DNA from: Caproicibacterium argilliputei
GTDB lineage: Bacteria > Bacillota > Clostridia > Oscillospirales > Acutalibacteraceae
Assembly: GCF_029211325.2 (NCBI RefSeq)
Contig: NZ_CP135996.1
Coordinates: forward strand, 496,001 to 560,000
Direction: 5' to 3'
DNA: 64,000 bases
Below the pieces are notes generated by a model. That model searched no databases, was not told where the DNA came from, and saw nothing but the letters and a program-made list of their open reading frames with translations. Of the stretch, positions 20,827 through 22,491 are shown piece by piece. Each line of letters begins with the position of its first letter. Position 1 is the stretch's first letter. The translations under genes were made by a program, and so were the position numbers.

Positions 20827-21000
20827 ACAAACATTCATAAATGCCCGCCTGGCCGTAAAGTGCAGAAATAACCTGCCTACGAAAGACAGGTGGGTGTCCT
20901 CCCAGCGGACTCATACTCCCATCGTCCGGCTGTCAAAACAGCCGGGAGGTCTGCATTCCGCCGCCGGAGTCGGGCTCCCAATTTAAAATTGTAGGGTTAT
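20785..21000 (-). ncRNA. Candidate rod-like non-coding RNA, possibly 6S RNA
   Basis: This 338-base gap (20703-21040) has no credible ORF but strong structure on the minus strand. It ends in a terminator: GCCGCCGCG pairs with CGCGGCGGC (20791-20826) followed by TTTTT. Upstream, CTCC-GGCGG pairs with CCGCT-G-GGAG to enclose a further CCGGCTGT/ACAGCCGG hairpin, outside which TGGG/CCCA can pair. Together these make one long irregular rod. A second hairpin, CCTGTCT/AGGCAGG with a TTCGT loop, follows. Length and rod shape fit 6S RNA, but I cannot confirm the family. The 5' end is uncertain. Confidence 0.5.
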
Positions 21001-21040
21001 TCTTAGCACAGGTCCGCGTACCAGGCAGGAAGCGGATTAT

Positions 21041-21349
21041 TTATTCGCCGAACGCTTCGCCCTCGTCCGTATAAAGTTCTTCAAAGTGTGCTTCAAACTG
21101 CGCAGCCAGTGCATCCAGAAGGCTTTCGTCCTCGACCTCTGCCAGCTCCTGCTCGCCGTTTTCATCGATACTCTGGAAGATGAAATAGGTGCCTTCGTCT
21201 TCGATTTTTTCTTGTGCATCGTCAAAAGTCGGCAGCAGCGCGTAGAAGGTTCCCTTGTCGTTGTCAATCACATCGAGAACCTCAAACTCATGCTCTTTGC
21301 CTTCCTCGTCCACCAGAGTGAGCAAATCCGTTCCAAATTCGTCGCTCAT
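21041..21349 (-). CDS. DUF1292 family acidic protein
   Basis: A small, highly acidic cytosolic protein (102 residues) of the DUF1292 family, common beside yrrK/yrzL-type genes in Firmicutes and of unknown function. The family core is visible: LVDEEGKEHEFEVLD, then YALLP and YFIFQ strands, and a Glu-rich C-terminus. The ATG at 21349 has GGAGG 9 bases upstream, so a 30-residue upstream extension is rejected. It is not in the usual ruvX-DUF1292 arrangement; ruvX lies at 32 kb. Confidence 0.85.
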   Translation of the reverse strand: MSDEFGTDLLTLVDEEGKEHEFEVLDVIDNDKGTFYALLPTFDDAQEKIEDEGTYFIFQSIDENGEQELAEVEDESLLDALAAQFEAHFEELYTDEGEAFGE

Positions 21350-21548: not shown

Positions 21549-21577
21549 TTGACATTGCATATCAATGCGGGTATACT
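21549..21577 (+). promoter_or_regulatory. Strong promoter of the large RNA candidate
   Basis: TTGACA, 17-bp spacer, TATACT: one of the best sigma-A matches in the window. It points into about 1 kb without a plausible protein gene. The transcript should start near 21584. Confidence 0.85.
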
Positions 21578-21743
21578 ATAAGCAGAAACAGGGAGTTGGC
21601 AAACAGATTCCGGCACAGCCGCAAGGGGGTTCCCAAAAAGGAACTTTCAGTGTGGGTGGTGCAAAGGCGGAGCGCGAGCGGCTCACTGTTTCAGAACAAC
21701 CAACAAAAAACCTGCCACAGGCAGGAAGAAAGGAGCGAGTCCC

Positions 21744-21803
21744 ATGGGCGAAGATCCAATCGGCAGTTTACAGCAGTGCAGTTCATGCGGCTGCGCTGCG
21801 TAA
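21744..21803 (+). CDS. Possible 19-residue peptide inside the RNA candidate
   Basis: An ATG with AAGGAG 8 bases upstream opens a 19-codon frame ending in a Cys-rich CSSCGCAA tail. It could be a tiny secreted or leader peptide, or an accident of the repeated GGAG...CCCATG RNA motif, whose other copies open frames of only four (21999) and two (22364) codons. The second reading is more likely. Confidence 0.2.
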   Translation: MGEDPIGSLQQCSSCGCAA

Positions 21804-22382
21804 TAAAACAACGGAGTGGTTCCCCAAGGAACCGGGGCGGGCATCGGTGAAAGCCTGCGCGGCAAAGTAAGCGCTGCCCCGTCCGGCAAGCGGATTACAG
21901 GCGTTGGGTTTTGTGTGTGTGCTCTACCCGCTGCGGGGCTTTCCCCGGAGCGGCAGGCAGATGAAAAACGAGACGTCAGGCGGAGGAGTTTGAGTCCCAT
22001 GCACAGGAAATAGAACGGGTTCTGCGGCTCAGAAAGCAAAGTTTCTGCCGGTATATGTACTGACAGACAAGGCGTTCTTCCGCATGAAATCTGTTTGCAG
22101 AAAATCAGACAAGGTAACGGAAAGGATTTGATTCCCAAATACAGGAGAAGCAGTCCGCAATATTCCCGAAAGGATGGATATTCGTTACGGATAAGACTGG
22201 ATTAAGTCAGCTCGCAGGGTGATCTGGAATTGGCCGCCCCAAAGTTTACTTGCCTTGCTCAAAGGCTGCCCTTTCAAGAGGGCGTTTGCAAATGGGATGC
22301 CACCAATGCAGCAGTCGAAAACACCTGAAAAGCAAATATGCATTTGTGCAGAAGGAGAAGTCCCATGCAGTAGTCCAACGTA

Positions 22383-22405
22383 AAATCGTGCAAAGCACGT
22401 TTTCA
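22383..22405 (+). terminator. First terminator of the large RNA candidate
   Basis: AAAA-CGTGC-AAA-GCACG-TTTT forms a compact stem with T-tail. Confidence 0.6.
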
Positions 22406-22412
22406 TAGCCGA

Positions 22413-22457
22413 AGCGGTTCCGGTGCAGCCAGACGTGGCGTGCCGGGGCCGCTTTTT
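22413..22457 (+). terminator. Second terminator of the large RNA candidate
   Basis: AGCGG-TTCCGG pairs with CCGGGG-CCGCT, followed by six T. Confidence 0.75.
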
Positions 22458-22491
22458 TATGTGCGAAAGAGGGCGACGCAGGTATTCAGCA

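Follow-up and report, generated by a model that had tools for sequence, protein, structure and literature searches.

Lambda bar is a two-codon minigene, and the familiar minigenes of this kind adjoin the gene they control. GOLLD, ROOL and OLE are among the RNA families of Rfam. The available excerpt of PMC3997798 describes STAB-SD stabilising leaders (cryIIIA, ermC, atpE) and reports that in Bacilli a strong Shine-Dalgarno site can protect an RNA even where no start codon follows it, and that very long untranslated RNAs are among those protected. Two-codon minigenes are described in the corresponding excerpt of PMC8708949 for the EHEC LEE1 ler leader and for mg2 of axe-txe, and there a two-codon minigene acts in cis, possibly through RNA protection. 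Dual-function RNAs, among them RNAIII, SR1 and VcdRP, are treated in the excerpted part of PMC8672173.

Here we analyzed a putative stand-alone transcription unit in Caproicibacterium argilliputei, situated in a window of 64,000 nucleotides (the whole stretch of DNA examined; NZ_CP135996.1, positions 496,001 to 560,000 of the forward strand). The original prediction had placed ~870 nt without a protein gene between a TTGACA-17-TATACT promoter and two terminators, and its boundaries were confirmed. The promoter matched the consensus at 11 of 12 positions and ranked first of 7 promoter-like sites in a 3-kb scan (mean of 2.1 in shuffles), and both boxes were kept in all six of the relatives in the alignment. 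The terminator scan of 3 kb gave 12 terminator-like sites compared with a mean of 4.2 in shuffles, and two of them stand at the 3' end of the unit. The second terminator has 21 predicted pairs in the consensus fold of six species, 10 of them with two-sided change. Promoter and terminators bound the unit, and it is flanked, as had been stated, by the DUF1292 and malic enzyme genes, the latter downstream on the same strand. Both long-range closures that had been pointed out were seen, the one at 21585/21686 as the 11-nt repeat of Table 1 (91%) and the one at 22114/22183 as GTAACG/CGTTAC, observed by eye and too short for the repeat listing. The ~880 nt hold no ordinary gene; what had been overlooked is a 19-codon ORF, the strong Shine-Dalgarno site in front of it and the repeated GG..GAGTCC.ATG motif. 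The features are collected in Table 1. A 6S RNA gene lies beside DUF1292 (window 20838-21034, minus strand), and L032, L091 and L136 likewise have 6S close to the unit.

Table 1. Features of the unit and its divergent neighbour, in window positions. Energies are for the predicted 16S duplex.
Feature	Position	Strand	Details
DUF1292 (PF06949) gene	21044..21349	-	Divergent neighbour; guide to homologous loci
Promoter	21549..21577	+	TTGACA-17-TATACT; boxes 21549-21554 and 21572-21577; kept in six relatives
Transcribed unit	21584..22461	+	Start inferred from the -10 box
5' domain	21585..21692	+	Imperfect 11-nt inverted repeat as closure (arms 21585-21595, 21682-21692)
Ribosome site 1	21728..21742	+	GAAAGGAG-C-GAGTCC; -17.1 kcal/mol with the genome's own 16S 3' tail
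Micro-ORF	21744..21803	+	19 codons, MGEDPIGSLQQCSSCGCAA, stop TAA
Hairpin at micro-ORF end	21773..21799	+	9-bp stem, 9-nt loop; stop codon starts 2 nt after; predicted in the six-species consensus
Anti-motif	21786..21796	+	Complementary to the GAGTCC region of site 1; mismatch in this genus
Ribosome site 2	21982..22013	+	GGAGGAG, GAGTCC, then ATG-CAC-AGG-AAA-TAG (4 codons); -13.0 kcal/mol
Ribosome site 3	22119..22144	+	GGAAAGGATTTGATTCCCAAATACAG, no start codon; -16.6 kcal/mol
3' domain	22215..22330	+	Limits approximate; blocks GTGA.CTGGAATTGGC and CCAAT..AGCAGT.GAAAACACC conserved in six species; closed by ATTGG/CCAAT
Ribosome site 4	22352..22373	+	AAGGAGAAGTCCC, then ATG-CAG-TAG; -12.8 kcal/mol
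First terminator-like hairpin	22387..22403	+	Terminator scan
Second terminator	22412..22458	+	Terminator scan and six-species consensus fold; kept in relatives

To follow the unit among relatives, both similarity and synteny were used. A blastn search recovered it in 7 of 11 genomes of the genus, and with the DUF1292 gene as guide a motif-bearing unit was found at the same place in all 11. The synteny guide located the module in 30 of 52 family loci examined, genus loci included; because a promoter-like match 40-700 nt upstream was required for a locus to be counted, the promoter at these loci is partly a condition of the search. Across the order, presumably Oscillospirales, a pattern for the first motif that contains AAAGG matched 53 of 394 genomes (59 places), compared with 2 genomes for the reversed control. 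The pattern matched 2 of 373 genomes of the class outside the order, the same as its reversed control (2 genomes), and the ORFs behind these two matches, of 44 and 3 codons, do not make them modules. Two alignments were built, one of the window with six others and one of the window with five others. The window and its six relatives share a conserved promoter, followed by GAAAGG.G(U)GAGUCC.AUGG and then a hairpin; downstream, the alignments revealed a weakly conserved middle, more copies of the motif, a 3' domain closed by ATTGG/CCAAT and a terminator. The 5' module also follows a promoter-like site in further genera, as well as in the families f13 and f26 of the order, whose units share the module; the whole RNA is not common to them as far as examined. 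The f13 units (L138, L139, L143, L147, L149) carry a further conserved element, GGGCATACYGATGRGTATG, which by eye forms a hairpin with a one-sided internal loop. A second, short RNA unit of ~300 nt with the same motifs was seen in G000, the window's own genome (L041, around position 1500; G000:C1:177510), and also in G002 and G007 (L042; L063). Its motifs stand before ATG-GAG-TAA, ATG-GCA.. and, in a third copy, ATG-ACT, with a promoter and terminator recognized by eye, and the gene upstream of it in G000 and G002 looks by eye like a recQ helicase.

Pairing with the 16S 3' tail of the window's genome, GGATCACCTCCTTTCT, was predicted for all four ribosome sites. The leaders of the micro-ORFs gave a median of -19.3 kcal/mol (-15.4 to -21.7; 46 leaders), calculated with the window genome's tail for every genome and with order-wide leaders that had been found by the AAAGG-containing pattern. 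The best starts of the 39 long ORFs in the window gave a median of -11.4 kcal/mol, and GAGTCC was present in 0 of 39. Nine rows had been dropped for these energies and for the counts of motif copies, namely three near-identical genus rows, L135, L154-L156, L158 and L162. The property that defines STAB-SD leaders, strong Shine-Dalgarno pairing with no need of a start codon, is thus found here as predicted pairing. The conserved GTGAGTCC differs by one G from the perfect 16S complement GTGATCC, and 16S pairing is therefore not its sole constraint. On the sequences compared, the best-conserved parts of the RNA are predicted ribosome-entry signals, not a giant fold.

The micro-ORF was examined first in the 30 family modules, which had been picked by synteny with ORF length disregarded. 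An ORF of 16-32 codons was present in 29 of the 30 and the remaining one runs off its contig; the two shifted frames end within 16-32 codons in 10 and 11 of the 30. The start codon is AUG, with GUG in one case. Among order-wide matches examined besides the window, 34 of 54 have an ORF of 16-32 codons (24/30, 7/21 and 3/3), and the remainder comprise two-codon leaders, ORFs of 3-12 codons and longer ORFs. Besides these 54 and the window's own, the 59 places include four more (second matches of G080, G607, G561, and G472). A chosen set gave 52 of 52 in-order modules (29 family, 23 order-wide; its 55 rows include two out-of-order rows), a figure that is partly circular because six rows (L131, L133, L134, L137, L153, L157; ORFs of 3-5 or 173 codons) were dropped by eye with the sequence in view. 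This set also leaves out L128-L130 and L132 (repeats or short RNA). Within codons 2-7, differences at positions 1, 2 and 3 numbered 47, 57 and 112, counted in chosen groups of relatives whose pairs are not independent, and in the same pairs the single-change codons comprised 61 synonymous and 53 non-synonymous cases. These data support a micro-ORF of 16-32 codons that evolves like coding sequence. Judged by this evolution, the unit combines a translated ORF with the lack of a long gene, the arrangement of dual-function RNAs. The hairpin at the micro-ORF end has one stem pair with two-sided change, and the same pair is broken in one species. In L154, L155 and L156 a module with an ORF of 22-30 codons precedes a gene, which in L154 and L155 looks by eye like a lipoprotein gene.

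A conserved GUGAGUCC lies between the Shine-Dalgarno site and the AUG, and its complement recurs near the end of the micro-ORF. Analysis of 49 modules revealed a mean duplex energy of -10.11 kcal/mol, compared with -7.39 kcal/mol for shuffled sequences, and the observed mean was reached by 0 of 300 shuffles. When the anti-motif was swapped between clades (49 modules, 26 clades), the mean was -9.54 kcal/mol and 31 of 2000 swaps reached the observed value, which is modest support for the pairing. The energies and the position count that follows exclude G110, both out-of-order rows and three genus rows that are near-identical to others. The distance from the end of the anti-motif to the stop codon is 1-12 nt in 40 of 49 modules, and it is within 15 nt in 47% of shuffles. 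Where the motif varies, its partner matches the variant (GCAGTCCAA/TTGGGCTGC in G220; AGTCCGA/TCGGGCT in G133), and the pairing is mismatched in the window and in most species of its genus. The anti-motif occupies different frames in different genera and all three are represented (CTG-TTG-GGC in G064, TGT-TGG in G156, GTT-GGG in G010); it is therefore kept as RNA.

Further copies of the motif follow the micro-ORF. Strict downstream copies (GG..GAGTCC..ATG) open a two-codon ORF in 20 of 28 cases, compared with 45 of 596 other ATGs; the rows include near-identical genomes, and after these were collapsed by eye the count was 11 of 15. With a looser motif it was 23 of 50. The start-codon-stop arrangement that characterizes two-codon minigenes is thus found behind Shine-Dalgarno sites more often than expected by chance. 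All six species aligned within the genus have ATG-CAG-TAR at site 4, and its sole variable base is the one free to vary in the stop codon (TAG or TAA). The 4-codon ORF at site 2 of the window departs from the two-codon rule. Another 27 strict copies have no ATG, and several of these continue with.AAATACAG or similar. One f26 genome carries five copies after its micro-ORF, opening ATG-TAC-TAA, ATG-AGA-TAA and ATG-ACT-TGA, with two lacking an ATG. A two-codon leader also stands before other sequence in three genomes, in at least two of them before protein genes (L171, L172 and L176; GAAAGG..GAGTCC-ATG-GGC-stop). A promoter-like site lies upstream in L171 and L176, the leaders of L171 and L172 directly precede genes, and the L171 gene looks like one for a secreted protein. 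Two-codon leaders are therefore not unique to long RNAs, and these cases suggest that they are in common use across the order. The docking module may be of general use there, with the long RNA employing it repeatedly.

Comparison of these loci supports a candidate RNA with its own promoter and terminator, a micro-ORF, GUGAGUCC and its complement, and extra two-codon or AUG-less sites, and the class is well supported by sequence. One tiny gene and several ribosome-binding sites with almost no protein to make suggest an RNA built to hold ribosomes. We give about an even chance to the reading of a long RNA that stands alone and is organized around sites of ribosome entry, in which a gated micro-ORF and parking sites would keep the transcript occupied and stable. 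In such an RNA, 30S subunits would dock at every ribosome site. At site 1, the segment at the ORF end would fold back on GUGAGUCC and close the start. Termination only a few nucleotides farther on would place a ribosome over the anti-motif, so that the start would stay open and translation would sustain itself. The other sites would hold ribosomes that stop immediately or never start. We infer this ribosome-loaded state from the docking effects reported in the excerpts of PMC3997798 and PMC8708949. Its benefit would most likely be a stable, ribosome-covered transcript, as in STAB-SD leaders and two-codon minigenes. It is possible, if doubtful, that the RNA is of a new kind which captures ribosomes or 30S subunits at a graded series of several sites (the gated micro-ORF, the two-codon ORFs and the sites with no start) and so senses or buffers the translation state of the cell; this would liken it to 6S RNA, which does the same for RNA polymerase.

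A dual-function RNA of the usual kind, with a micropeptide that has a protein function of its own and a long remainder that base-pairs with targets, seems to us unlikely. The codon-like variation of the ORF fits it, as does M-[GDV]-x-E, which recurs by eye at the start of the micro-ORF, but past the first residues the peptides share little (also by eye). Neither the presence of the anti-motif in all three frames in different genera nor the two-codon and AUG-less copies would be explained by a peptide function. More unlikely still is an RNA that base-pairs in trans, with its GAGUCC repeats as the seed for target mRNAs or for a second RNA bearing GGACUC. GAGUCC does recur with variable spacing and a variable Shine-Dalgarno part, a constancy that is partly a condition of the search because the patterns contain GAGTCC, but such a seed leaves unexplained why AUG-codon-stop follows most AUG-bearing copies.

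We also consider it improbable that this RNA is large, noncoding and purely structural in the manner of GOLLD, ROOL or OLE, the kind the original prediction had in mind. The unit folds better than 20 of 20 dinucleotide shuffles (z-score -6.26), and the 3' blocks are conserved in six species. In contrast, the covariation term contributed -0.98 of -95.36 kcal/mol in the six-species consensus fold, even though some two-sided change was present in 28 of 116 pairs, and the overall fold gets little support from covariation. Length varies as well: in 45 of 55 rows the distance from the motif to the first strong terminator-like hairpin is 73-1484 nt, no such hairpin was found in the other 10, and the 73-nt case (G061) is probably not the end of its unit. 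Homologues whose variation follows codons had been named as evidence against a structured RNA, and this was found in part, in the micro-ORF. What stands of that proposal is a long conserved unit with its own promoter, but its best-kept parts are predicted translation-initiation sites. The failure to match it to a known family was borne out, as the unit had no covariance-model match in Rfam 15 at the gathering score; a permissive threshold gave four sub-threshold matches (E 0.7-5.1). Related loci (7 + 12) matched at the gathering score only in neighbouring 6S genes. The Rfam scan also gave a T-box in L152 with a score of 71.1, under the cut-off of 93.

A sponge for a protein that recognizes translation starts, such as CsrA, has very little probability. 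The RNA carries several Shine-Dalgarno-like copies and CsrA is encoded in the window's genome, but a sponge of the CsrB/RsmZ type does not fit the presence of CsrA in 4 of 11 genus genomes, all 11 of which contain the RNA module. No CsrA match was obtained in G004 and G007, near-complete genomes that carry the RNA, and the GGA core is not kept, as GGG, GGT and GGA all occur. The CsrA version is largely refuted; a sponge for some other protein is possible. That the unit is a leader or attenuator of the malic enzyme gene, which follows on the same strand, is barely credible, as terminators stand between them, the next gene in G007, G006 and G010 is a flavoprotein gene (by eye a thioredoxin reductase), and other families have other neighbours by eye. 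An ordinary gene was rejected, since by eye no long plus-strand ORF looks kept across homologues and a 151-aa minus-strand ORF seems merely to mirror the conserved blocks. A phage element was likewise rejected: the four motif matches in viral contigs had ORFs of 154 codons (two) or ORFs open to the end of the stretch (two). The motif had no match in plasmids.

A limited literature search found no published description of this RNA, and the taxon names searched for were absent from the main texts of PMC8632094 and PMC8040213. If selection keeps start-codon-stop ORFs in an RNA without genes, evolution would thereby testify that initiation with no product has a use of its own. If docking is its function, this would be an apparently unnamed RNA that acts on or through ribosomes across one order, by inference Oscillospirales. 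Oscillospirales are abundant in guts. Long "noncoding" candidates need a micro-ORF test before they are filed as structured RNAs.

With GOLLD, ROOL and OLE the RNA shares its size and its nature as a stand-alone long bacterial RNA; unlike them it has no Rfam match and little covariation, and its conserved parts are predicted translation signals. RNAIII, SR1 and VcdRP, as described in the excerpt of PMC8672173, are likewise stand-alone RNAs with a small ORF, whereas here no conserved peptide is evident, there are extra ribosome sites, and the anti-initiation element lies inside the ORF. The STAB-SD leaders of the PMC3997798 excerpt resemble it in that a long RNA carries strong Shine-Dalgarno sites, not all of them followed by a start codon; there one 5' site protects an mRNA, whereas here several sites run through a unit with no long gene and stabilisation is putative. 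Two-codon minigenes share with it AUG-codon-stop behind a good Shine-Dalgarno site, and unlike the familiar minigenes the two-codon ORFs described here occur several times in a single unit that has no gene, and they turn up in different genera.
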